Below, piece after piece: positions 11,125-33,772 of a stretch of 50,999 bases of DNA. The stretch's first letter is position 1, and every line of letters starts with the position of its first letter. The stretch comes from a virus, in IMG/VR virus record IMGVR_UViG_3300030329_002776, positions 1 to 50,999 of that record. One strand, given 5' to 3'. Under the pieces are notes generated by a model. The model did no database searches, was not told where the DNA came from, and saw only the letters and a program-made list of their open reading frames with translations. A program made the translations under genes and the position numbers.

Positions 11125-11589
11125 TTAATCTAAATCAACGTATTCAATTGTTACTTTTTCACCATTTTCTATAGCTTCTGCTATTGGCGGATATATACGT
11201 TTATAAGCTTGAGTAGATCTACCTATAAAACCATCTTTCTTTAAAAGATTATTTTCTTGCGAATCACCAACTATAAGACAACCAGCAGTATGCTCGTCTG
11301 TATTACCAGTATGTATAAGTATCCACTTAAAATTTGGCACATCTTGTAACCATAACATTCCTTTGTGCATGTCACCATATTTTTTAATATATCTACTATG
11401 ATGCCCACCTTCTTTACGAAGTAGTATGCTATACACACCAGCTGGAATACGGGTTTCACTCATTACTTTTTCTTCTCTTCTTTCGTCTTCTAATGTATAA
11501 CAAAGAAATTTTGTTTCATTTGTTACATCAAACAACAATCCACTTGTTGAATCGCTTTGACTACTAAATCTAATTACTTTTAACTTCAT
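11125..11589 (-). CDS. DUF5675-like protein, possible peptidoglycan/lysis enzyme
   Basis: The 154-aa protein matches the DUF5675 pattern. It has FLCYTLEDERREE at ~28-40, IPAGVYSILLR at ~48-58, a GMLWLQDVP segment, and WILIHTGNTDEHTAGCLIVG with His93 and Cys104. The HxGN...GC pair recalls the His/Cys catalytic arrangement of YkuD-type L,D-transpeptidases, though I cannot prove that fold here. Such proteins are frequent in phages of Bacteroidetes and are suspected cell-wall enzymes. It is the last gene of the virion block, one base after the giant adhesin gene. No other clear endolysin is seen in the window, so this is the best local lysis candidate. Confidence 0.65.
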   Translation of the reverse strand: MKLKVIRFSSQSDSTSGLLFDVTNETKFLCYTLEDERREEKVMSETRIPAGVYSILLRKEGGHHSRYIKKYGDMHKGMLWLQDVPNFKWILIHTGNTDEHTAGCLIVGDSQENNLLKKDGFIGRSTQAYKRIYPPIAEAIENGEKVTIEYVDLD

Positions 11590-19863: not shown

Positions 19864-22800
19864 TTATTTTTTTATTATTCTTTTATTAACGGTTATTCCG
19901 TTGTGTATTATTTGTAGTGCATACACCCCAGAACTTAATTTAGACATATCTAAGGCGTTTGTATTTGTTTTGGACATAACCATATCCCCGATATAATTAA
20001 ATACGTTTATATCAACGTTTTTGTTTATATTAATTTTACCGTTTGTTGGGTTTGGATAAACCACTAAAGCGTCTTCTATACTCATTCTAGTTGGTATTTC
20101 ACCTATATAAGTACTATCACAGTAATCATAAGTTAATTGGCATATATTATCCCATGCGTTTTCACAGCAATAATCATCTACTGATATTACCCACGCATAG
20201 CATTCATCATTAAGCCAATATGGATTTCCAGGACCAGTGGCACAAGGAGCAGCGAAAAGACAAGAAACACTATCGTGAACATTAGCAAGGATATCATAAT
20301 TAAATGCCGATTGATCCATACATCCCTCAATAATTGTAATACAGCTTCCATTATCTGTGTTTGCAAGCGAATCATAGTTGAGCGCAGTGGAATCCATACA
20401 ACCATATACGTAAGGAATACAACTAAAATTTTCTGTGTTCGCGGTAGGATCATAGTTAAGCATACTAGGGTCAGTACAACCATAGATAAAAGATACGCAA
20501 GAATTATTATCGACATTTGCTAAAGGATTATAATTAAACATAGTACTATCCGTGCATCCATATATTGGAAGTATACAACTAAAATCATCAGTATTGCAAC
20601 TATCACAATAATTAAGAGCTATTGGATTTGTACATCCATATATAAATGGAACACAAGTTCCGTTGTCAGTGTTAGCTAAAGGATCGTAGTTAAACATTGT
20701 AGAATCCATACACCCATAAGAAAATGCTATACACGCGCCATTATCTGTATTAGCCAATGGATCATAATTAAACATAGTTGCATCCATACATCCATAGATA
20801 AATGGAATACAACTTCCGTCGTCTACATTTGCACTAGGAGCATAATTCCACATAGTAGAATCCATACAACCATATGTAACACCTATGCAACTACCATCAT
20901 CAGTATTTGCAAGTGAATCATAATTTATAGCTATAGAGCTCATACAGCCGTATATTACAGGTATACAAGTATCTGGAGTATTCGCGTTAGGATTATAGTT
21001 AAACGCTAAATCATTCATACAACCTAATATAACTGGTATACAACCGCCGTTATCTATATTAGCGTTAATATCGTAATTAAACGCTAAGGAATCTGTACAT
21101 CCAAATACTGCTAAAGTTAAACAACTACCATCATCTATACCCGCTACATATCCTTGGGTGTAATATTCTAAATAACCTGGGTTTGTACAACCTGGATCAT
21201 AATAACAAGTATCGTTAGTGTTTGCTAAAATATCATAATTATAAGCTAATGAATCCATACATCCATACGCTACTGGTTCACAGTAGTTTCCACAAGATGG
21301 CATGGCTGTATATATTTCCCAGAATGGATGACTAAAAGATTGCAGGGCTCCTTGTCCGTTATTAGCAAATGGATTTGTTCCTTCTGACAACAACGTATCT
21401 CCATAAGCGTTAATTAACACAAAAGAGTTTTGCATAGTTTGAAACTCTACCTCTTGCGGAGGTTGTTGTGCTCCGGGAACTTCAAAGTAATAAACCATAA
21501 CTGGCTCATCTGTTTCTAAATTTACTGAAAATGACTGCGAATACGAACCCGGTCCCATTGTATATGCCCAACTATTACCTCCTTGCATAATACCTAAATA
21601 TGAATTACCCCAACCATCAGCAGCGTCATCCTCTATTATTAAAGTATAATCACACACTGGTATTAAATCCATTATAGTTGCGGTAGGATCATAATTAAAC
21701 ATGGTATCATCTGTACATCCATATACATGTAAATTAACACATGTACTATCATCTACGTTCGCTAATGGATTATATTCTTGATAGTTTGGATCAGTACAAC
21801 CAAGTATTGTATCTTGTCCAGCGCAAGCGGTTCCATTTTGAACTGTAGAATATGCTACGTATCCAAAGTTAACACCCACTGTATTTTGACTACCATCTAA
21901 CCAAGTTCCCGATGTAAGGTATGTTATAGTATCTCCATTACAATCATATATAACAACTTCTCCAGCTGAACCAGGTGTTCCATTCCCCATTATTCCATCA
22001 CCATATGAATCATTTAATATTAATTCAAATCCTGATTGTTGAACGCAAAACTCATAAGTATATGTTTGTCCTATATCACCATAATCATACGTTCCTTGTG
22101 GAGCATCTCCCATGGCTTGACCTCCACTCATCATTATCCAAGAAGTTTCACCAGGCCAATTATCCAACCTAATAGTCATTGTTATTTGATACTCATTATT
22201 AGGATCACAAGTAGCGCCAACACAAGAACCATCATCAATATTAGCAAATGGATTATATGATGTTTGAGTTGAATCCGTACAGCCTGGTATACAAGGTGAT
22301 GGTGTATAAGTTATCGTATCTGATAAAGTTCCATCCGCATATTCTAATACTATATAGTGTTCAACGCTCCAGTTAGGAGGCATTTGTCCACTACCAGCAT
22401 TTAAAGCAAAATTATTATAACCGTTAGCTGCTGGCCAATACCCCATATAAGAATAAATAGGATTATTTTCATTACCATAATGTATTTCAACCACATCACA
22501 AGTAGACATCGCAGTGTCAGACCACCATTCAAATGTTATTCCCGCTTGTGTTCCCCAACACTGCCCGTAAGCATTAGCACTTATAAAACCACCACAAGGA
22601 GGATATGTACAAGAACCATCAGGATAAACGGCGTTAGGATCGTAATTTAAAGCTAATGTGTCTGTGCATCCCATTGCCGCGTTAAATGCATCGCTAATCA
22701 TTAAATCATCTATAGCTATATCACTAGTATATAAGTCACCAGTTACAGCTGTAAACTTTATTTTAAATGAATCAGTTGAAGCTATTGGATAATAAGCGAA

Positions 22801-23220
22801 AAGCCACTGATCTCCATAATTACCAGATTTAACATCTAAAACAGTATATCCATTATTATCTAGAACTCCAACTTCTAAATCACCCATTTCCGTACCGTAC
22901 ATATGGTACCAGAATGATAATACTTTACCAGGTGTTGCCGATACGTCAAATGTTGGTGTGTATGTTATAAGTGTTTTGTTCGGGTAATTAGGATATGAAG
23001 ATTCTACGTAGTAATACATACCACTACCCGTGGTGTGATCTCCAGATGGTCCAGTGTTATAGCTATAAGTTGGCCCCTGCCAAACAGTCCAATCACCATC
23101 ATCATTAATTTCTTGCTCTAAAGCTATACCATTATCAAAATCATAAACCCAAGGAAAGGTGTTGATTTGTCCAAAACTAAATATTGGTAATAATAATAGT
23201 ATTAATAGTAGTTTTTTCAT
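19864..23220 (-). CDS. Secreted MAM / cysteine-repeat / T9SS-sorted surface protein, 1118 aa
   Basis: A Sec signal peptide (MKKLLLILLLLPIFSFGQ) comes first. Residues ~20-175 look like a MAM domain (WVYDFDNG, LSFWYHMYG, IAIDDLMISD). Then come about 17 copies of a ~27-residue two-Cys unit, GC(T/M)D...(F/L)NYD..AN.D.G.C, scattered between other beta domains up to ~700 and nearly in tandem at ~703-985. A 'CCENAWDNICQLTYDYC' segment follows (~1015-1032), typical of marine Bacteroidetes secreted proteins. The last ~70 residues (VVYPNPTNGK, VFNYIGDMV, LSSGVYALQI, KRIIKK) are a textbook type-A T9SS sorting domain. The protein should pass the inner membrane by Sec and reach the cell surface by the host's T9SS. 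It lies inside the virion block, four bases upstream of a virion-type gene. The function may be adhesion or receptor shielding. Confidence 0.9.
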   Translation of the reverse strand: MKKLLLILLLLPIFSFGQINTFPWVYDFDNGIALEQEINDDGDWTVWQGPTYSYNTGPSGDHTTGSGMYYYVESSYPNYPNKTLITYTPTFDVSATPGKVLSFWYHMYGTEMGDLEVGVLDNNGYTVLDVKSGNYGDQWLFAYYPIASTDSFKIKFTAVTGDLYTSDIAIDDLMISDAFNAAMGCTDTLALNYDPNAVYPDGSCTYPPCGGFISANAYGQCWGTQAGITFEWWSDTAMSTCDVVEIHYGNENNPIYSYMGYWPAANGYNNFALNAGSGQMPPNWSVEHYIVLEYADGTLSDTITYTPSPCIPGCTDSTQTSYNPFANIDDGSCVGATCDPNNEYQITMTIRLDNWPGETSWIMMSGGQAMGDAPQGTYDYGDIGQTYTYEFCVQQSGFELILNDSYGDGIMGNGTPGSAGEVVIYDCNGDTITYLTSGTWLDGSQNTVGVNFGYVAYSTVQNGTACAGQDTILGCTDPNYQEYNPLANVDDSTCVNLHVYGCTDDTMFNYDPTATIMDLIPVCDYTLIIEDDAADGWGNSYLGIMQGGNSWAYTMGPGSYSQSFSVNLETDEPVMVYYFEVPGAQQPPQEVEFQTMQNSFVLINAYGDTLLSEGTNPFANNGQGALQSFSHPFWEIYTAMPSCGNYCEPVAYGCMDSLAYNYDILANTNDTCYYDPGCTNPGYLEYYTQGYVAGIDDGSCLTLAVFGCTDSLAFNYDINANIDNGGCIPVILGCMNDLAFNYNPNANTPDTCIPVIYGCMSSIAINYDSLANTDDGSCIGVTYGCMDSTMWNYAPSANVDDGSCIPFIYGCMDATMFNYDPLANTDNGACIAFSYGCMDSTMFNYDPLANTDNGTCVPFIYGCTNPIALNYCDSCNTDDFSCILPIYGCTDSTMFNYNPLANVDNNSCVSFIYGCTDPSMLNYDPTANTENFSCIPYVYGCMDSTALNYDSLANTDNGSCITIIEGCMDQSAFNYDILANVHDSVSCLFAAPCATGPGNPYWLNDECYAWVISVDDYCCENAWDNICQLTYDYCDSTYIGEIPTRMSIEDALVVYPNPTNGKININKNVDINVFNYIGDMVMSKTNTNALDMSKLSSGVYALQIIHNGITVNKRIIKK
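20265..21110 (-). repeat. Protein-coding tandem repeats, about 81-base unit
   Basis: About eleven in-frame copies of a ~27-codon unit lie head to tail inside the 1118-aa gene. The coded pattern is YGCMDSTMFNYDPLANTDNG followed by a Cys two residues on; the Cys pair, the NYD/NYN and the AN.D triplets are the fixed positions. Copies near 20680-20800 are the most alike (MFNYDPLANTDNG twice), suggesting recent expansion there, while the flanking copies have drifted. Confidence 0.9.
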
Positions 23221-23369
23221 ATTTCAAATCCAAAATTTAATATTATACATCTGTGCTCAATACCAGGATTGCAGTATAGTTCTAATATTGTAAATCTACC
23301 TATTCTAATAGATATATCATACACGTTATCTTTTTTATTTCCTTTTCTCCAACTATTTATCCAATTCAT
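23217..23369 (-). CDS. Small hypothetical protein, 50 aa
   Basis: ATG at 23369-23367, two bases after the stop of the nuclease gene, and TGA at 23219-23217 overlapping the ATG of the 1118-aa gene (ATGA). This exact fit supports a real gene. The product begins MNWINSWRKGNKKDNVYDIS, then has a strand pair (IRIGRFTILELYCNPG, RCIILNFGFEI). No family is recognised. Through the overlap it may couple translation of the large secreted protein to the upstream genes. Confidence 0.6.
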   Translation of the reverse strand: MNWINSWRKGNKKDNVYDISIRIGRFTILELYCNPGIEHRCIILNFGFEI

Positions 23370-23371
23370 AC

Positions 23372-23740
23372 TTATCTTTTTCCACCGTCATATGGCACGG
23401 CGTGTCCTTCTTTAATTAATAACTCATTTACATTAGCAAGGGTTAAACAATCCTTCCCGTCCAATACATCAACATGCAGTTCACCTAAACATCTCCCGTA
23501 TTTACCAACACCATAAGAATTTAGTTGTATTGTATTAGCACCCTCTAATATAGCTTTCAATCTATCTTTAGCAGCTAAACCTCTAGCTTTTTCTTCTAAA
23601 TCTCTTGTTCTAGATTCTGGTGTATTTATTCCTTTAAATCTTATTCTTTTTTTAACAGATATATTAAATCCTAAATCAATATAAGCATCAATAGTATCAC
23701 CATCAACAACTCTATCTAGTTTTATTTTGTACGTATACAT
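23372..23740 (-). CDS. Staphylococcal nuclease-like (SNase) protein, 122 aa
   Basis: Starting at ATG 23740 the protein follows the SNase fold. It has a YKIKLDRVVDGDTIDAYIDL strand pair with the DGDT metal-site motif, RFKGINTPE with the catalytic Arg34 and Glu42 (spacing of eight as in SNase R35/E43), EEKARGLAAKDRLKAIL as the first helix and GKYGRCLG with Arg83 (SNase R87). SNase Asp40 is replaced by Asn, which is frequent in bacterial relatives. A longer frame from 23782 overlaps the lipoprotein gene and lacks extra conserved residues, so 23740 is preferred; it lies one base after that gene's stop. The chosen start has no signal peptide, so it should act in the cytoplasm, perhaps on host DNA. 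Confidence 0.88.
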   Translation of the reverse strand: MYTYKIKLDRVVDGDTIDAYIDLGFNISVKKRIRFKGINTPESRTRDLEEKARGLAAKDRLKAILEGANTIQLNSYGVGKYGRCLGELHVDVLDGKDCLTLANVNELLIKEGHAVPYDGGKR

Positions 23741-23741
23741 T

Positions 23742-23849
23742 TTACAAGTGTTTTGCACAGCATTTTTTATCTTCTTTATCACAAGCTTTCTCTTGAATAG
23801 AACAACTTGCTAAAAATAATATTAACAATATAAAAAATGTGTTTTTCAT
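23742..23849 (-). CDS. Tiny lipoprotein, 35 aa (o-spanin-like candidate)
   Basis: The frame from ATG 23849 to TAA 23744-23742 encodes MKNTFFILLILFLASC as an exact lipoprotein signal with lipobox LASC. A 20-residue mature part follows, with Lys, Asp, Glu and three further Cys (ACDKEDKKCCAKHL). It fits between the thioredoxin-like gene (2-base gap) and the nuclease gene (1-base gap). Small lipoproteins near exported coiled-coil proteins can be outer-membrane spanin subunits. Here the mature part is very short, so a full spanin is doubtful. Confidence 0.65.
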   Translation of the reverse strand: MKNTFFILLILFLASCSIQEKACDKEDKKCCAKHL

Positions 23850-23851
23850 TA

Positions 23852-24214
23852 TTAAAAGTCGCTCATTAGTTGATTGCTAATTTCTTCTTGAACTTCTTCT
23901 CTCGTTGCTAACATTTTGAAACTTAAATCAGCTTGAAATCTAGCGACTTCTTCTCCGTCTTTAAATATTATTATTGTAGGTACAACCGCTATTTTATATT
24001 TTGATTGTGCTTCTGTATCCTTAGCTATATCCGTATAAGATATTGTCTTGCAGTCTTCTAATTTTTGTACCCAAGAGACGTCGTTAGCACTATTCCAACC
24101 AGCGTTAAATTGAACAACCTTTATTTGAGCAAAAGCGTTGTTAGAAACTAATATAAAAAAGAGTACTAATAAATACCCTGCAAATAACTTCCAAGTTATA
24201 TAGGATTTTTTCAT
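23852..24214 (-). CDS. Exported thioredoxin-fold protein lacking the CxxC motif, 120 aa
   Basis: A signal peptide with a basic start and a long hydrophobic stretch ends near NNAFAQ (residues 1-30). The mature part follows the thioredoxin pattern: IKVVQFNAGW at the strand that usually precedes WCGPC, a helix (VSWVQKLEDCKT), YKIAVVPTIIIFKDGEEVARF with the cis-Pro at P79, and a C-terminal helix. In place of the CxxC there is NSANDV, so there is no disulfide chemistry at the normal site; Cys55 is the only Cys. It probably serves as a binding or chaperone module in the periplasm. It lies in the exported-protein cluster between the coiled-coil membrane protein and the tiny lipoprotein. Confidence 0.8.
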   Translation of the reverse strand: MKKSYITWKLFAGYLLVLFFILVSNNAFAQIKVVQFNAGWNSANDVSWVQKLEDCKTISYTDIAKDTEAQSKYKIAVVPTIIIFKDGEEVARFQADLSFKMLATREEVQEEISNQLMSDF

Positions 24215-24219
24215 TTGAT

Positions 24220-24501
24220 TTATCTATTATATAATTTGTCTTCTATCTTTTCAATAGAATTTTTTATTTCTTTTACATCTTCTTGAGTTTCCATAATAGT
24301 ATTACGGATCATTTGATCTTTCATTTGAAACTCCATGCGTGTTACTTCAGGATCTGGTGGGGCTGGTGATTCCATTGCTTTAGCAATATCTGCCTGAAGC
24401 ATAAACCACATGCTTATTAAAGTTGCCATTGCAAATCCTATACCTATTAATGTCTTTATACTTAACTTAAAAGACGTGTCTTCATTTAATTCTTTTGCCA
24501 T
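24220..24501 (-). CDS. Single-TM protein with coiled-coil tail, 93 aa
   Basis: A short N-terminal part is followed by one TM helix (about 17-35, LIGIGFAMATLISMWFMLQA), a Pro-rich link (ESPAPPDPE) and a predicted coiled coil to the end (MKDQMIRNTIMETQEDVKEI, then KIEDKLYNR). This is the layout of inner-membrane spanins and some small phage membrane proteins. Between an OMP-like gene and a thioredoxin-like gene, it belongs to the envelope-directed cluster. No named family is recognised; an i-spanin role is a hypothesis. Confidence 0.65.
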   Translation of the reverse strand: MAKELNEDTSFKLSIKTLIGIGFAMATLISMWFMLQADIAKAMESPAPPDPEVTRMEFQMKDQMIRNTIMETQEDVKEIKNSIEKIEDKLYNR

Positions 24502-24502
24502 T

Positions 24503-25582
24503 TTAAAAAATCGTGTAATTTAATCCTAATTTAAAATCGTACCACTCTCTATTCCAGTACTTATTATATTTTCCTTCTATAAAATATCCTAAATGCTTGT
24601 TAACTTTTATTCCATAAATTAATCCACCAGAATAATCATACCATTGCCCGTCTACATAATTGTGGTATGAGAATTCACTACCATCATCATAATGATAAGG
24701 CATTAAACTTCCCCAAGCGTGTATCCATGATTTTTTAGAATATTTATAATAATCAAAACCAACAACTATAGAATGTTGGATTGTTTTCTTTAATTCATTT
24801 CTTTTCTTTTGAGTGTAATCAGATAATACTTCTGGTATTACAACTGCTTCCCAAACCTCAGGACTAGTCGCTACTAATTCGCCATCTGGACTATAATACT
24901 CGCTATTATACACGTCAACAGTATAACCTTCTTGTAAAGCTAAATAAGTATAATGTATATTACCATTATCTAACATCCATTCGTCTAAAGCGTTATAACC
25001 ATAAGGTTCAGCAAGTCTATGTGTAAGCCCTATATTCCAAGATAAATTTTTACCTTTACGATGTCTATATCTTTCAGATGCCTCAAAATATTTTATGTCT
25101 GCAAAACCGTCTTCTAAATACTCTAGTTTTAAAGCAAAAAAGTTTACACATATTTCACTGTCACAACCGTCGTCAGAGCTAAATCTAATAAAATGATGTT
25201 GATCCATATAGTCAACACCCTCTTGTCTCTTGTAATCTACCTCAAACAAATACTCAACTCCTCTAACTTTACCTACAGTGGCCGCATCACTATAATTAGA
25301 TTCCGTTCCATCATAAAACGTTTGTGCTTTATTTTCATATCCGAACCTCGCTATCTTACGTAAACCTATGGTAAAATTATAATCATAAGGAGTTGAAATA
25401 GTCTGCGTAGATAAACCATTATCCACGGAGAATACATCAACATCAGATAATGATGTTCCACCATTTACGGCCGCATAAAATGTAGAGTACTTTAACAGCT
25501 TTTTAACATCTTGTATTCCATACGTTTGCGCTACCATTATATTAGATATAAGTAGTAGCAATATTATTAGTCTTTTCACCAT
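24503..25582 (-). CDS. Outer-membrane beta-barrel-like protein, 359 aa
   Basis: A Sec signal (MVKRLIILLLLISNIMVAQ) is followed by a mature protein rich in aromatic residues and amphipathic strands (YNFTIGLRKIARFGYEN, LSWNIGLTHRLAEPYG, HSIVVGFDYYKYS, KHLGYFIEGKYNKYW). It ends in FKLGLNYTIF, the terminal-Phe signature recognised by BAM. A length of about 340 mature residues fits a 12-16 strand barrel. Two close Cys (DDGCDSEIC) sit in a likely loop. As it has a signal peptide it is not a virion tail part but a protein the phage places in the host outer membrane. Receptor masking or permeability change is possible. Confidence 0.75.
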   Translation of the reverse strand: MVKRLIILLLLISNIMVAQTYGIQDVKKLLKYSTFYAAVNGGTSLSDVDVFSVDNGLSTQTISTPYDYNFTIGLRKIARFGYENKAQTFYDGTESNYSDAATVGKVRGVEYLFEVDYKRQEGVDYMDQHHFIRFSSDDGCDSEICVNFFALKLEYLEDGFADIKYFEASERYRHRKGKNLSWNIGLTHRLAEPYGYNALDEWMLDNGNIHYTYLALQEGYTVDVYNSEYYSPDGELVATSPEVWEAVVIPEVLSDYTQKKRNELKKTIQHSIVVGFDYYKYSKKSWIHAWGSLMPYHYDDGSEFSYHNYVDGQWYDYSGGLIYGIKVNKHLGYFIEGKYNKYWNREWYDFKLGLNYTIF

Positions 25583-25612: not shown

Positions 25613-28600
25613 TTACCTAGTAATTGTTTTTCGTTTATATGTTTTTCTTTCAAAAGTTGGTCTACCAAAAGTTTGTTTTTTCTTTTTCTTTTTTTCTTTT
25701 TCTTTAATATCTTCTATTTCTTGACTCTCAATACCAAGATTCCACTGACTCCAACCACTAAACATTAAAACTCTTTCAAGAGCGCTATTTTGACTGTCTA
25801 ATGATTGTCTTACGTTTTGCGTTTTATTATACAGTCTATTAAGCGGTACATTAGTAGTGGCTTCTATATAGTTTGTTACTGCTGACCACTGTGGATTGTC
25901 GATATCAAACACGTCCATTTCGTCTATCACTTTTTTATTGTAATTAAGGGTTCTTTCAGCATTAACTACTTTTCTAGCTTTAATGCCAAGTGGAGGCGAA
26001 ACATTTAGCATCTCCATTAACACCGCACTTTCGTCTGCATTATAACCTTTATCTCTTTGTTCGTGCCATTTAATGGCCATATTTTTTAAAGTAGATACAG
26101 CTGCGCCCCAAACCCCAGTACCTCTCAACACAGAGTCAATACTACCGTTGATCATTCTTTCTTTCTTTTTCAACCACTTTTCGTCTTCTTCGTCTTCATC
26201 AAACATTGCCATAAACAATGCTGATTGTAAAGAGTAAAACACTAAGTTTTGTATCGCGAAGTAATAAGCTATCCTAGAAAGATTAGACATGTCACTTTGT
26301 AATTGCGTTGTATTGCCAGGTGTTATTCTTCTATTCTTAATATCTAAAAACGCTTTTTTACCTAATCTATTAAATTGAGATGTTACATTTTGAAAAGCTA
26401 ATATAATTTTACCAAGAGGAGAAGCTTGTTGTTGCGAAACCATATCAGGTCTTGCGGACTGCTGAGTAGCCTCTGCTAGTATCTGAAAATCAGTCCAAGC
26501 TTTTGATTCAGCCTCTTTCTTACTTAAACCCTGCTTTAAATAAGTATTTATTCTATTTCTTAAAAACGTAGAACCACCAGTAGCAATAGCTATATTATCC
26601 CCAATTTGTGTTGGTAAAAATCCTATTTCTAATAATTTTTTTATCGCTGCTTGAATTGGATTTTTTGCTCCTTTAACGGAGGCTGCTAGTTCAGCTCCAT
26701 TAACATCTGTCTTAATACCACCACGTCTTTGTTTCATAAAATCAGAGTTAAATATATATGCCCAATCCGCCCAGTATTGTTTTTGATTAGCAAAAGCTTT
26801 AGCGGCTGATAATATATTGTTATCTGCAAAGTTTATAAAGTTAACTAAAGACATTTGCTGTAACACGGCTGAACGTATATTAAAGAACATTGTAGAAGCA
26901 ACAGAACCGTTTAAATAATTCATGAATTGATTTACAAGTTTGTTCTGCCCACTAGGTCTATTTCTACCAGTTTTAGTTCTATATAATATATCTTTAAGAG
27001 CACTAACTACTCCAGCTCCATAAGCGGCTTCTATTTTATTAAAATTCTCTTCAGAGAATATTATATCAGCATTTTGAAAGAATTCAGTAAAAAACTCTTC
27101 TCTACCAACTCTACCAGTAGCATCATCTAAATCTGTTCTTATATCTCCAGCTTCCCAGCTTTCAGTTGGACTTATATATGCGTCTTGTTTAGATATTGTA
27201 TTTATACTTTCCGCGTATTGTTGTAGTTTAGGATCAGATTTAACTATTTCAGATAATTCTTTTTGGTCAGTTTTACTTAATCCAGGAACACTATAACCAT
27301 GCTTATCCCACAAATAAACTCTTACAGCATCTTCATATGTAAAATCACCATCTGGAGTTTTTCTCGCTAATCTCTTTTTAACTATTGGAAATTGTTTATT
27401 TAACGATTTGTAATCATTAGCAATAGATTGCTTAGCTGTATTTAACTCTCTATAAGCTCTATTTAATGGTTGTACTAATGCTTTTTCGAAAAAATCTCTA
27501 TGTGCGTTACCTTTTTTACCTTTACCCATAAAGTTATATAACAATCCTACAAAATCCTCATGTGATGGTGGTATAAAAAATCTAAATTTTCCTTTACTAG
27601 CACCACGTTTTCTAGCTTTAACATCTGAAAACCGTTTTTTAGATTCAATACCTGTAACTTCTTCTAATATATTATTAAACTGATCATTCAAAGATTCACT
27701 AAATTGAGCTTTTGCTTGCTGCACCTTAGACTTAACGTCAAATTGGTTTAACATATTTTTAACAGCTTGCACGTTTTGTAAAGCGTCATCTGCAAAATAA
27801 AAGTCATTATATCCTTCTCCAACTTTATCAACTATCCAAAGTGCTTTAGCTTCTGATGTAGAATTAGCTAAGCCAGTAATATTTTTTATTGGTATATTTA
27901 ATCCATTAGCTTTTAAAAAATCAAATATAGCTTTGGCGGCTTGCGGTGGTCTAGCCGTTAATACAAACATGTTCTCAGGACCAAATTTACCTTGTAGTTT
28001 TAAAGCTTTTTGAAATAGCGGGGCTATCTTGCCTTTAACAACTTTATTAAAATCAGAAAAATCAAATGTAAAACCTTGATTTAGTAAATCTTCGTATGTA
28101 TTAGCATATTCTTCAGCATTTAAAGTTCCAGTGGTTCCATCTGGTCGAGTATATTTAACTAAAGACTTGGTTGTGGCTAATGTATCATCAAAATCTAAAA
28201 CTGTAATACCTTTAGGTGATTCTGAAAAACTAGATACTCTAGCGTTTACAACGGCTTTATTAAGAGTTGTAATCTTATTAGTTTCACTTTTAAGATTACT
28301 AATCCTTCCTACCGCGCTAACACTTAAAACTTCAGCAGCGCTTTTATTTGATCCAATTTGTATTAAGTTGTTAGGATTAATGCCGCCTAAATCAGCTATA
28401 GTTTGATTAAAATATCTTTCCCACCAACTATTATTAAATACATCCCAACTACCATCTAAAGACATAACGTTTTTAAAGCCACCGGTATCTATTTTTTTAT
28501 TATCAACTTTAGATATAGCTATTAATTTGTAGTTATTTTTTAAAGCATCTAATGTTTTCCTAAACTCTTTTCTATTTTGATTTTGAGCTGCTTTAATTAA

Positions 28601-31600
28601 AAGTCTATAAGCGCTTGCGTTTTGTAGTGCGTGTTCAAAATATAATTTATCTTTTACTGTTTTGTCTATATACTCAAGAACAGCTCCTAATCTATGTGGA
28701 TGTGTGCCCTCATTAATAGAGCCAGCCAACCAATTAACTACATAAGGAAGTTGACTTGGATCTTTCTTTAACCCATCGAAAATAGCCATCCACATATAAT
28801 CAAAATTATCTATATTTCTTTTGTTTAAAGCTTGCTTTTGGTTATCTGTTGTTTCATTTACTAACTTTGTATTCCATTTAGTTTTAGCAAACTTAGGATC
28901 TCTTGAAAACTTTTTCATATCTGACAAAACCTCTTTAGAATATTTTCTAAGTTCTCTTTTACTTATAGTTGAACTTGTAATAGCTATAGTTTTATTCATA
29001 AAACCATTTACAAACATATCTGTATTGGCAATCCAATTAATATAATTTTCACTTCCAATCGCCGTGTTTGGATCATTATACTCAAATCCAAGTTCTTCAA
29101 CCATTTTTTGATCAACTTCACTAAACATAGTTTCAGATTTACCTTCTTTAATATTTTGTATAATCTCCTGTGAATTGTCTATATTTGCAAGTTGTTGCCT
29201 TACCGCCTGGTTGGTTATCATTTTACCTGTTAAATTAGCTAACGCTAACACTCTAGCCGATGTGTTTCTATCTGTACGGATTGGTTTACCATTTATAATA
29301 CCAAATGTTTCTAAGAAATCAGTTTTCTTTATATTATTTTTTTGTTGAATAGCTAAACCAGCTTTACTACCAGTCTTAGTCATTTTAGCTCTATCAGTTT
29401 TAGTATAAAATGCTTTTAACAATGTGTTAGGCACACCTGTAGCAGTACCACTAACAGTAGCTCCTTCTGGTAGCATTGCTATTAATAAATCAGCATTTTT
29501 ATTAATAAACATTTGCGCTGACTGCAATTCTCCTTTTGTTATATTAGCTAGATTAATTAATTTTTTTGGTGATATACCAAAAAGATTTCCTGTAATCTCT
29601 GGTGTTTGATCTTTTAGAGTTTTAAAAGTTAGTTTTTCAAGATTTAATTTAGATAATTTTTTCTTTACAATTTTATCTACTTTATCTTTTACTCCTAGTC
29701 TTTCTGATAATATGATTTTTTTCTTTTCAACAGGCGTTTTCTTTCTTTCTTCCTTTTGAATCATTATTTCCTCAGGAGATAAAGGTGTTTGTTGTGCTTC
29801 TACAACTCTAGCAACGCCCTCTTCTTGCATTGACACTTGAACATTACCATATTTAGGATGGTTTTCAACGAACTCCTGCAAACGCATATCAAGCATTTTC
29901 CTATCTCTAATAGTTGCGTTAAAGTAACCCATTACGCCTCCCTCAAAATCTTTATCGTATTTCATTAGCAAGCCAACAGCACCTCTATTTTGTAGACTTT
30001 TTGGTAAGCTTTTTCTAGGCCCAGTAAATTGAAGTTGAATATCTTCTAAATCTTTATTTGTAAAACCTTCTATTAACCCAGCATCTTTTAATTTTGTTAA
30101 ACGATCAAAAACAATACCTTGCATCATATCAGCGGTAACATTAGCCGCTAACTCCTTGTCCATGTCAACATATTCATTAAACGTTTCATTGATCTCAGTA
30201 TAAACCTCTGAAGCCAAAGCTTTGTCTTCTGTCTTTTTATCTTCTAACTCAGTGTTTACTTTACCTTTTGACATTCTAAAAGTAGGTCCAGTACTTACGC
30301 CTTGAAATTTGTTAAATTTCTGTATATACTCAAGGGCATTTCCACCATCAAACTTAGACCAATCAAGACCCATTTGAGTTTGTTTTTGAAACATTTTAGC
30401 GAACAATTTGCTAACACCAGATAATGTTGCGTAACTATTTTCATTTAAATCTGTAACACTATAGTATTTAAAAGCGTCAGATAAATTAGAAAACCATTCT
30501 TTATAATACTGTCTATCAGTTAATTTTTTATCTGCATATCTTCTTGAAAATAATTCATTAGCTAATACAGCTATTTTTAAAAGCTTTGGATCAGCGCTTG
30601 TTAATAGTTCTTTTACAACAGACTCTTGTACACTCTTTAGTTTTTCAGTTGACATATTGTCTTGAATCCAATGAAAAGCATCGTGGTGAAAAGCATTTGT
30701 AGATGTAATATCACCTTTATCTATATTATCAATAATATTTTGATCAATTGCCCAAGCTGTGTTACCTAAAACAGCAGCATTAACACCTCCATCATGAAGA
30801 CGTTTCATATCTAACATTTTTTGAAGCTTTTTTGGATCTCCTATATTTTTAAAATCATTAAAGGCTTTTGCTGTGGCGTTATCAATATTTTCACCTTTGT
30901 TTTTATACTCTTCTATCTTATTAAGTATAGATTCAGTATCTTTTAACCAGTTTTTATTTTTAAATGATCTATTGAAATATTTTTTTGCTTGATCTTTATC
31001 TTTAAATCTTTTAAATGTTTTACCTTTAAAATCACCTTCTTGCGTTGTATTTATCCACTCTACAATTCTACCATCTTGAAAAACGTTAGCTTTTAAAAGT
31101 TCTTTAATAACTTTGCTTTCGCTTTCTTGTATTTTTTTCTTATTTTCGTTTATCTTGTTTTGATTTTGAAGCGCTTGCACGGTTCCTGCCCCGCTAACTT
31201 GCTCTTCTTTGATCTTTTTATTGCTTTCCTCTAATTGAGTGTTTTCTCTTTCAAGTATTTTAACGTTGTACAGTTCGTTGACGGTTGTTTGCTTAGCATC
31301 CTTACCAAGGCTTTTATATTTAGGAGTGTTGTTAACCATGTCCTCAACAGATTCAAGATAAGTAAATGCATCGTCTCTTTCATCTATAGTAATTTTTCCG
31401 TTTTTAAAAGCCTCATCAATCGCTGCTTTTTTCTTGTTAATCATGAACCTTGCTTCACGAGGATTTTTAAATAATCTCGCGCTAAATTCTTTTTTTGCAG
31501 AGCTAAGAACTTTACCACCACCCATAAGAAATGGTGTTGTAACTACGGCTTGTGCGCCACCCTCTAACATTCGTCTTATGTTTTCTTCTTTAACTCCAGC

Positions 31601-33772
31601 GTATCCAGTAGCTGCTTCAACACTTTCAAAACCAATTTTTTCTTGAAGTACTTCTGTAATACCTTCAAAGCCAGTAGCCACAGTCGCTCCTTGCGCACCC
31701 TTACCAAGTAGTAATTTTTTCCATCTACCTCTCATGACATCTCTTAAGACACTTTTAGGAATCGCTTTAACTCCTTTAGTGAAAACCAAGAAATTAGAAA
31801 CAAGATCAAGACTAGCGGCACCCGCGCCACCTTTTAATGCTGGTTCAAAGTCAACTTCACCATTAGTAACAACCTCAGTCATTAATCGCGTTCTAGCACT
31901 TTCTGGTAACATTCCAAAAGCCTGTTTAGCTTCTTCGTCGTCCAAATCAGGAGCATATTTTCTAGCTGCCTCTATAGTTATACTTTCCATTGCAATTCCA
32001 CCTGACTCTTGTGCAAAAGTTGGAATTAAAAACATACCAGCAATCATTTGTATCGCTTGAGTACCAATCATTTGTTGAAATTCATCTAACGTGATTTGAG
32101 GGTTAAGTATTCCCTCTCCAAATATTTCTGGTTGACCAAGACGACTTAACTGTTCTTGATATTCATTAGACTTACTTATAATTGCACTTTGTTCTTTTAT
32201 AATATTTTCAACACGTGGTGGTAATGCTTTTTGGAATTCATTTAACTCACTATCTGTTAATGATTTTATATCAATACCACCTACTGTATTAGCTAGAAAA
32301 TCAACTTCAGCAGTCGCAAAATCGAGTCCATCCTCAGTAGTAGTAACGTCTATTTTCTCTTCATCTTTCTTTCTTTTTTGCGAATACCAATTTCTTAAAG
32401 CGTAACTATCAGCCTTGTCTTCATTAATAAAACCCGTCTCAACGTCATAGTCAACAGCTTTTTCTAAAAAACTTATTAAATTTTTTGTAGTTTCATCTAA
32501 TGGTTTTCCAGAAGCTATTTTTTCTTGAATCTCATCGTTCTTTTCTTGGAAATACGGTAAAGGATTGTTTTTTGTTTTTTCTCTTTCTCTTTTTTCCAAG
32601 TCTATTGATGTTGCTACGGCTTGCTCGTCAATAAACCACGAGTTACCAGGCATCACAACACTTAATTCGTTAAATCCTTTTAAGAGCTGTATATACCCTC
32701 TTCCAACACCTCCCATTAGATCACCTAGTATATCACCTCCATATATAAAGTTTTCAAGTTTTCTTACACCTGCCGTTATTGGAAGAATTTCTTCCTCAGC
32801 TTCTTTTACGTATTGCTTACCTATAATAGATTTTTTATCTTCTTCACTACCGTATTTACTCATTACAGCAAGTCCAATGCCATTTTGTATTTTTTTATAT
32901 TCAGGACTAGCGTTTACAAGCTCATCATATTTAGCGCCAATTAATTCGTTTACTTTATCGACATCGCTCTGTTTTGTCATGTCGTAATCAGCTTTTACCT
33001 CTTCAACATAAGACATTAGTTCTGGTTGAATATCTTTTAATACTGGTTGTAAAACGTTTGGATTGTTCATCATTTCTTGCGCTATTTGAGCTTGATGTTG
33101 TTCCAATTCTTTAGAGGTTAAATCTTCTAACTTTTTATCACTACCGTCCTCGTTTTTGAATGATACTGGTCTTGTATCAGAATATTTTATGGTCTCTGCA
33201 TATGCATTAGAATTAAGGTTTCTACCTGTCTCTCCTTTTTGATAATGATTTTGTATAAAATTATTTATTCGGTCGGCTTCTTCTTCAACAGAAGAACCAA
33301 ATAGAGTACTAAGCCCAATGCCAGTGCCTAGAATTCCTTTATCAAAAGAAAACATATCCTGCTTTCTTTCTTCTTTTGGTTGACCTTCGTATTCCGGTGG
33401 AGCAAATACTGTTATATAATCACTACCTCCAGGTCCTCCTTCTTCAAATTCAAAACCCATGCCACCAAACCGTTGTCTTAATCTTCCTATAGCAACTTCT
33501 TCTGTTACCTTAATATCCCTTCCGGTTACTTTTGGTAATTCCAAAGAACCAACTTCCTGCTGCGATTCCATATCTTCTGACTCTACAATTGGATCTACAA
33601 GAGCAGAGTCTACCGTCTTTCCCATGCCTTCTGGATCTACAGTTGAATCTACAAGCTCTTGTTCTACATCTTCTTCCTTTTTTACTGCGTTTGGAAATTT
33701 TTGTAAAAACTCTTCTAGTCTACTTTGTCCAACAGAATATTCTTGACCATCAACTATATAAATTTCATTCAT
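25613..33772 (-). CDS. Giant ejection-type polyvalent protein with HAD domain, 2719 aa
   Basis: A protein this size in a short-tailed phage virion block is most likely packaged and injected with the DNA. The N-terminus (MNEIYIVDGQEYSVGQSRLE, then an acidic VDP-type repeat region) looks like a virion-targeting start. Around residues 1858-2010 there is a HAD-type phosphatase domain: LDFDDTLA (motif I, ~1860), FVLTARPP (motif II, ~1934) and a C-terminal FADDAL (~1990). The last ~700 residues are helical, with hydrophobic stretches (SVASTMFFNIRSAVL, RIAYYFAIQNLVFYSLQSAL) and a Lys/Arg end. No RNA polymerase or lysozyme motif was found by eye. The gene is between the EF-hand protein and the envelope cluster. 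The HAD domain may clear phosphates from nucleic-acid ends or nucleotides, but the substrate is unknown. Confidence 0.75.
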   Translation of the reverse strand: MNEIYIVDGQEYSVGQSRLEEFLQKFPNAVKKEEDVEQELVDSTVDPEGMGKTVDSALVDPIVESEDMESQQEVGSLELPKVTGRDIKVTEEVAIGRLRQRFGGMGFEFEEGGPGGSDYITVFAPPEYEGQPKEERKQDMFSFDKGILGTGIGLSTLFGSSVEEEADRINNFIQNHYQKGETGRNLNSNAYAETIKYSDTRPVSFKNEDGSDKKLEDLTSKELEQHQAQIAQEMMNNPNVLQPVLKDIQPELMSYVEEVKADYDMTKQSDVDKVNELIGAKYDELVNASPEYKKIQNGIGLAVMSKYGSEEDKKSIIGKQYVKEAEEEILPITAGVRKLENFIYGGDILGDLMGGVGRGYIQLLKGFNELSVVMPGNSWFIDEQAVATSIDLEKREREKTKNNPLPYFQEKNDEIQEKIASGKPLDETTKNLISFLEKAVDYDVETGFINEDKADSYALRNWYSQKRKKDEEKIDVTTTEDGLDFATAEVDFLANTVGGIDIKSLTDSELNEFQKALPPRVENIIKEQSAIISKSNEYQEQLSRLGQPEIFGEGILNPQITLDEFQQMIGTQAIQMIAGMFLIPTFAQESGGIAMESITIEAARKYAPDLDDEEAKQAFGMLPESARTRLMTEVVTNGEVDFEPALKGGAGAASLDLVSNFLVFTKGVKAIPKSVLRDVMRGRWKKLLLGKGAQGATVATGFEGITEVLQEKIGFESVEAATGYAGVKEENIRRMLEGGAQAVVTTPFLMGGGKVLSSAKKEFSARLFKNPREARFMINKKKAAIDEAFKNGKITIDERDDAFTYLESVEDMVNNTPKYKSLGKDAKQTTVNELYNVKILERENTQLEESNKKIKEEQVSGAGTVQALQNQNKINENKKKIQESESKVIKELLKANVFQDGRIVEWINTTQEGDFKGKTFKRFKDKDQAKKYFNRSFKNKNWLKDTESILNKIEEYKNKGENIDNATAKAFNDFKNIGDPKKLQKMLDMKRLHDGGVNAAVLGNTAWAIDQNIIDNIDKGDITSTNAFHHDAFHWIQDNMSTEKLKSVQESVVKELLTSADPKLLKIAVLANELFSRRYADKKLTDRQYYKEWFSNLSDAFKYYSVTDLNENSYATLSGVSKLFAKMFQKQTQMGLDWSKFDGGNALEYIQKFNKFQGVSTGPTFRMSKGKVNTELEDKKTEDKALASEVYTEINETFNEYVDMDKELAANVTADMMQGIVFDRLTKLKDAGLIEGFTNKDLEDIQLQFTGPRKSLPKSLQNRGAVGLLMKYDKDFEGGVMGYFNATIRDRKMLDMRLQEFVENHPKYGNVQVSMQEEGVARVVEAQQTPLSPEEIMIQKEERKKTPVEKKKIILSERLGVKDKVDKIVKKKLSKLNLEKLTFKTLKDQTPEITGNLFGISPKKLINLANITKGELQSAQMFINKNADLLIAMLPEGATVSGTATGVPNTLLKAFYTKTDRAKMTKTGSKAGLAIQQKNNIKKTDFLETFGIINGKPIRTDRNTSARVLALANLTGKMITNQAVRQQLANIDNSQEIIQNIKEGKSETMFSEVDQKMVEELGFEYNDPNTAIGSENYINWIANTDMFVNGFMNKTIAITSSTISKRELRKYSKEVLSDMKKFSRDPKFAKTKWNTKLVNETTDNQKQALNKRNIDNFDYMWMAIFDGLKKDPSQLPYVVNWLAGSINEGTHPHRLGAVLEYIDKTVKDKLYFEHALQNASAYRLLIKAAQNQNRKEFRKTLDALKNNYKLIAISKVDNKKIDTGGFKNVMSLDGSWDVFNNSWWERYFNQTIADLGGINPNNLIQIGSNKSAAEVLSVSAVGRISNLKSETNKITTLNKAVVNARVSSFSESPKGITVLDFDDTLATTKSLVKYTRPDGTTGTLNAEEYANTYEDLLNQGFTFDFSDFNKVVKGKIAPLFQKALKLQGKFGPENMFVLTARPPQAAKAIFDFLKANGLNIPIKNITGLANSTSEAKALWIVDKVGEGYNDFYFADDALQNVQAVKNMLNQFDVKSKVQQAKAQFSESLNDQFNNILEEVTGIESKKRFSDVKARKRGASKGKFRFFIPPSHEDFVGLLYNFMGKGKKGNAHRDFFEKALVQPLNRAYRELNTAKQSIANDYKSLNKQFPIVKKRLARKTPDGDFTYEDAVRVYLWDKHGYSVPGLSKTDQKELSEIVKSDPKLQQYAESINTISKQDAYISPTESWEAGDIRTDLDDATGRVGREEFFTEFFQNADIIFSEENFNKIEAAYGAGVVSALKDILYRTKTGRNRPSGQNKLVNQFMNYLNGSVASTMFFNIRSAVLQQMSLVNFINFADNNILSAAKAFANQKQYWADWAYIFNSDFMKQRRGGIKTDVNGAELAASVKGAKNPIQAAIKKLLEIGFLPTQIGDNIAIATGGSTFLRNRINTYLKQGLSKKEAESKAWTDFQILAEATQQSARPDMVSQQQASPLGKIILAFQNVTSQFNRLGKKAFLDIKNRRITPGNTTQLQSDMSNLSRIAYYFAIQNLVFYSLQSALFMAMFDEDEEDEKWLKKKERMINGSIDSVLRGTGVWGAAVSTLKNMAIKWHEQRDKGYNADESAVLMEMLNVSPPLGIKARKVVNAERTLNYNKKVIDEMDVFDIDNPQWSAVTNYIEATTNVPLNRLYNKTQNVRQSLDSQNSALERVLMFSGWSQWNLGIESQEIEDIKEKEKKKKKKQTFGRPTFERKTYKRKTITR

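Follow-up and report, generated by a model that had tools for sequence, protein, structure and literature searches.

Do the genes for envelope-directed proteins in the virion block of this phage belong together, and does such a set serve the particle or the infected cell? The window (the whole stretch of DNA analysed) comprises the first 51 kb of an IMG/VR record 62,494 bases long. After a gene for a 2719-aa protein, those for OMP, TM93, Trx, a lipoprotein, SNase, gp50 and a T9SS protein (REP) follow each other on the minus strand. The intergenic gaps from OMP to the T9SS protein are 1, 5, 2, 1, 2 and -4 nt, indicating that SNase, gp50 and REP share one tight run, or operon, with the genes before them. 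The features, with the evidence for each, are:

24503..25582, minus strand: OMP, predicted outer-membrane beta-barrel, 359 aa, core (ORF, alignment, AF2 barrel, Foldseek, co-occurrence)
24220..24501, minus strand: TM93, predicted inner-membrane protein, 93 aa, core (ORF, alignment, hydropathy, position upstream of Trx)
23852..24214, minus strand: Trx, exported thioredoxin-fold protein, 120 aa, core (ORF, alignment, fold)
23742..23849, minus strand: 35-aa lipoprotein, accessory, not conserved (sequence, lipobox LASC)
23372..23740, minus strand: SNase-like nuclease, accessory, mobile in the block (Pfam PF00565)
23217..23369, minus strand: gp50, 50-aa gene, accessory (ORF; relatives in other module loci)
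19864..23220, minus strand: REP, T9SS surface protein, 1118 aa, core partner (MAM, PF18962, TIGR04183, repeat count, co-occurrence)
11125..11589, minus strand: DUF5675 protein, at the far end of the same transcription direction (PF18925, E 3.3e-25)

The preliminary description had started from an OMP-like barrel, a single-TM coiled-coil protein, an exported thioredoxin-fold protein and a tiny lipoprotein. All four genes are indeed present at 23742-25582 on the minus strand, the lipoprotein being smaller than the ORF cut-off and found by direct reading of the sequence. The SNase, the 50-aa gene and the T9SS protein follow in the order described, in the same tight run. The 2719-aa protein (window 25613-33772) contains no cysteine and has a VLDFDDTLATT stretch typical of HAD-type phosphatases.

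Searches with the window OMP and the window Trx yielded 426 and 143 IMG/VR stretches, respectively. A distant OMP query with 51% identity, whose contig had been binned in a Flavobacteriales MAG, matched at least 540 stretches, some on contigs of 100-245 kb; part of them were already in the window-OMP set. When 236 loci, some of them from the same contigs, were searched uniformly with profiles, OMP, TM93, Trx and REP all lay within ~8 kb in 177, and in all exceptions the contig or locus broke off at the expected position of the missing gene. Independent occurrence of the genes in relatives, which was sought over the 236 loci and not found, was rejected on these counts, in agreement with the earlier suggestion that the genes belong together. 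The existence of a module is solid. Its core consists of OMP, TM93, Trx and REP, not of the four genes listed first: the membership proposed earlier was right for OMP, TM93 and Trx and wrong for the lipoprotein, while the T9SS protein, left outside the cluster at the time, proved to be conserved. In related phages the gene order takes three forms (REP-OMP-TM93-Trx, OMP-TM93-Trx-REP and TM93-Trx-REP-OMP), with extra genes inserted in some; almost all relatives have TM93 immediately upstream of Trx.

The other genes of the run are accessory. Similar short lipoproteins are present in few relatives only (e.g. L002, L042 and L074), and the lipoprotein was rejected as a core member on this ground. 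The SNase gene moves or is absent in relatives, and gp50 is not constant either. Insertions are concentrated at the position following Trx, where small basic proteins are also frequent; a PAP2-superfamily-like protein of 175 aa was observed in this variable stretch in L006 (10466-10993) and 53 other loci. Many relatives have an M15 peptidase at a place similar to that of the DUF5675 protein, which is a candidate cell-wall enzyme or endolysin. A HTG...GC stretch in the DUF5675 protein is reminiscent of L,D-transpeptidase motifs.

An independent check was made with 21 records of at least 35 kb picked by the head protein gp223 and not by the module, any of which, as IMG/VR records, may be a fragment. 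The module, whole or truncated by a record edge, was present in twelve; one carried TM93 alone, and eight (one of them 66 kb) had none. Phages of the gp223 lineage thus often, but not always, have the module. Two of the genomes, G013 and G015, have divergent versions of OMP, TM93 and Trx and no REP was found in either record; G021 has doubled TM93 and Trx genes without OMP or REP. Nested in the order TM93 > Trx > OMP > REP, these occurrences suggest that TM93-Trx may be the oldest part, to which REP was added.

The carriers belong to more than one type of phage. The window gp223 shares 31-33% identity with its counterparts in Cellulophaga phages phi38:1 and phi40:1, Maribacter phage Panino and the Flavobacterium elemo phages, which makes the window phage a distant relative of that podovirus lineage. 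Together with the T9SS signal this points to a Bacteroidota host with a T9SS. The T4-type major capsid protein Gp23 was found in seven of 12 large carrier contigs and not in the remaining five, among them a contig of 245,646 bases (G022) with two complete modules ~118 kb apart (L332 and L333). In a tree of OMP the window version clusters with those of other small phages, close to the T4-type versions; G013 and G015, which have a head protein of the window's lineage, are far off on long branches. The tree and the mixture of capsids fit an exchange of the module between phage lineages.

It might be supposed from their location that these proteins are parts of the particle, since in the window their genes lie in the structural block, between the 2719-aa gene and fibre-like genes. 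However, OMP, Trx and REP bear signal peptides, the same proteins occur in podovirus-type and T4-type phages with unrelated capsids, and the module is surrounded in some T4-type loci by genes of nucleotide metabolism and lysis. Furthermore, phi38:1 (Pervagoviridae), Panino and the elemo phages have a homologous head protein and a run of structural genes similar to that of the window, but a profile search of the genome stretches compared found no homologue of OMP, TM93 or Trx. A tblastn search with these three proteins and divergent versions against 50,697 phage records and isolates returned generic thioredoxins only. A role in the virion is therefore very improbable and was rejected, as the preliminary description had anticipated in proposing a system not tied to the virion. 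The module appears to act on the envelope of the infected cell rather than in particle assembly, and, as phages with unrelated capsid types inherit its genes together, it stands out as a functional unit.

Capture of a host gene was also considered. Among 296 genomes of the Flavobacteriales-centred order to which MAG G041 belongs, OMP was found in one and TM93 in two; the strong match for both was a viral contig binned in the MAG, and the second TM93 match was a 39-aa fragment at a contig end. OMP and TM93 are thus essentially absent from the 295 other genomes, so that within this sample the set is phage-specific and not a recent host capture. Just four contigs came up among 84,980 species genomes scanned. 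Module contigs were also seen in an archaeal MAG (Nitrosopelagicus) and in Maricaulis MAGs (L164, L166 and L167); these are probably mis-binned phage DNA.

The predicted locations of the four core proteins bear out the earlier statement that every compartment from inner membrane to cell surface is covered. OMP has a signal peptide and a C-terminal Phe. Its AlphaFold2 model shows ~12 strands at a mean pLDDT of only 62 (low confidence), and the Foldseek matches listed are outer-membrane barrels with low TM-scores. With its modelled barrel and signal peptide OMP classifies as a putative outer-membrane beta-barrel, the strand count being of low confidence. Within the window-like group it is 67-91% identical to the window version. 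No Pfam or NCBIfam family was found for it, including the PorP/SprF models, and a PDB sequence search gave nothing useful. About one third of the OMPs (e.g. L048, L066 and L136) have a lipobox-like leader (..SCSAPKKCCSQ) in place of the plain signal peptide; a comparison across loci of separate lipoproteins as substitutes for this lipobox gave no clear pattern.

In TM93 a single hydrophobic segment close to the N-terminus is followed by a Pro-rich linker and then a conserved coiled coil, which is predicted to be periplasmic. Judged by its sequence, TM93 would share its topology with i-spanins or with lysis accessory proteins of the BhlA/XhlA type. TM93 matched no spanin family in PHROGs, NCBIfam or Pfam, the last searched with all TM93 members. 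Lipoproteins of ~70 aa at L268 (3806) and L270 (4626) contain MKEQLLREAI, resembling MKDQMIRNTI of the TM93 coiled coil, and possibly represent an outer-membrane partner.

Trx has a hydrophobic N-terminus ending in ..AFA|Q. Its thioredoxin fold is backed by Pfam, by sequence profiles that find thioredoxins in the PDB, by the predicted structure and by Foldseek. Where WCxxC would be expected the sequence reads FNAxWN (FNAxWNxxN in the window family); this motif, the cis-Pro stretch (VPT/IPT) and MSDF at the C-terminus do not vary across the alignment. A CxxC motif is absent from the window Trx and present anywhere in only eight of 165 family members, indicating that Trx is not a standard disulfide enzyme.

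REP has a hydrophobic N-terminus or signal peptide, a MAM domain (Pfam) and a C-terminal sorting domain (PF18962, Por_Secre_tail, 3.2e-11; TIGR04183, 5.2e-08, above cut-off), and is on these grounds a predicted T9SS type A cargo protein. It contains 17 GC[TM][DN]..C repeats and 52 cysteines. GC-type repeats are common in marine Bacteroidota proteins. The number of cysteines makes a periplasmic partner with a thioredoxin fold plausible, and it may be asked whether OMP, Trx and TM93 help to fold, export or anchor REP via the host T9SS, in a SprF-like manner. Two of the three gene orders indeed place REP immediately before OMP, and the T9SS signal was present in all 12 large contigs tested. Such a role as export helper is nevertheless unlikely, considering the absence of CxxC from most Trx sequences, that of the window included, the lack of a PorP/SprF match for OMP and the loci in which OMP, TM93 and Trx were found without detectable REP.

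The genes surrounding the module suggest another role. In 22 of 58 distant loci an endolysin (PG_binding_1 plus Amidase_2) directly after Trx or a small 2-TM protein was located at most 600 bp from Trx, and 35 of the 58, in genomes of up to 245 kb, had any endolysin or holin-like gene within 6 kb; both counts include near-duplicate loci and indicate a tendency, not a probability. The 2-TM protein, which may be holin-like from its shape, had no family match in Pfam, NCBIfam or PHROGs. Other module loci carry a 3-TM holin family (PHROG 3427, 4e-33) and M15 peptidases, and an XhlA-like gene is located directly upstream of TM93 in several podovirus-type loci. In the reduced versions L328, L329 and L330 the core lies beside an M15 peptidase, a lipoprotein and the gene for this 2-TM protein without REP, and in L330 also without OMP. 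These neighbours, and the reduced versions within lysis cassettes, favour a role at the envelope in lysis.

Our preferred reading, held tentatively, is that the set is a phage-specific trans-envelope module, inherited as one unit by unrelated marine phages and serving a lysis or egress programme in the infected cell. We infer that TM93 in the inner membrane and Trx in the periplasm would form a bridge to OMP in the outer membrane, and that this complex would help to breach the Bacteroidota outer membrane, or to time its breach. REP would be a later addition, exported to the cell surface via the T9SS of the host itself. Several findings argue against a role in lysis. A T9SS-secreted protein is no obvious lysis component, many distant loci show no lysis gene in the stretch examined, and some T4-type loci have the module amid genes of nucleotide metabolism; the neighbours may simply be expressed late together. 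No module member matched a spanin, holin or disruptin family. In one group of large phages the module is flanked by an Rz-like protein distinct from TM93 (c30) and by a lipoprotein of 63 aa (c19), so that in this group TM93 need not be the spanin.

REP itself is best explained by a close rival of the lysis reading, remodelling of the cell surface or superinfection exclusion, in which REP, held or supported by OMP and linked via Trx to TM93, coats or masks the infected cell and either blocks further adsorption or causes progeny to be retained or dispersed. This proposal is possible, if somewhat doubtful. A surface-exposed repeat protein is present in all complete window-like and T4-type loci, and two complete modules in the 245-kb contig would suit two specificities. 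The gp2424 homologues of G003, G005 and G008 (L336, L339 and L337), giant virion structural proteins (PHROG 14478), have 9-21 repeats of the REP type and thus share its GC repeat, an adhesive-looking domain. However, the window gp2424 contains none of these repeats, and OMP, TM93 and Trx are kept without REP in G013 and G015. The high conservation of OMP is also unlike that of typical arms-race surface proteins. No match to known anti-phage defence families was found in PADLOC-DB, which is a defence library and not a test of exclusion as such. Of the "remodelling or exclusion" put forward in the preliminary description, the absence of ties to one type of virion has stood, whereas exclusion was not supported and the neighbouring genes suggest lysis.

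It is also conceivable, although we would not stake much on it, that the four proteins constitute one phage-built machine from the surface to the inner membrane, for instance a sensor coupling events at the surface to the timing of holin and lysis, or a device for surface display. If so, this would be a phage system of a new kind, spread between podovirus-type and T4-type marine phages. The likely functions, lysis or exclusion, are of kinds already known for phage modules acting on the envelope. OMP and TM93 are unnamed in all family libraries searched (Pfam, PHROGs, NCBIfam and PADLOC), and the module is undescribed in the literature found by a search outside subscription journals. Hundreds of IMG/VR contigs of uncultivated marine phages carry the set. 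Breach or remodelling of the envelope by phages of Bacteroidota is poorly described, and the module supplies concrete genes for it.

Among known systems, the two-component spanin of the lambda Rz/Rz1 type resembles TM93 in having an inner-membrane protein with one N-terminal TM segment and a predicted periplasmic coiled coil. As in that system, a small lipoprotein is nearby (in the window and few relatives), and lysis genes adjoin the module in many loci. Unlike Rz/Rz1, however, the module has no conserved cognate lipoprotein and TM93 lacks a spanin family match, the set includes a beta-barrel together with proteins of the thioredoxin-fold and T9SS kinds, and one carrier group has its separate Rz-like protein. 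In SprB/SprF-type pairs of Flavobacterium a large surface T9SS substrate is encoded beside an outer-membrane protein of ~350 aa. Compared by description, REP and OMP resemble these pairs in size and adjacency; they differ in the missing PorP/SprF match of OMP, in the type A signal of the window REP and in the two extra phage-specific partners. Phage-encoded T9SS cargo has been described in Cryophage, where, in the accessible part of the report, it comprises variable genes for endoglucanase, GH39 and PA14 proteins; a role in competition or superinfection was proposed, which would favour surface remodelling here as well (PMC7468147). BACON-domain proteins of phages likewise appear, in the accessible text, as variable cargo of this system (PMC6949934). 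Like REP, these proteins have a type A C-terminal signal and are presumably exported by the host; conserved barrel, TM and thioredoxin partners such as those of REP do not feature in the accessible parts of either report (PMC7468147; PMC6949934). The phage-encoded T9SS cargo described here is part of a conserved module rather than a variable cargo gene.
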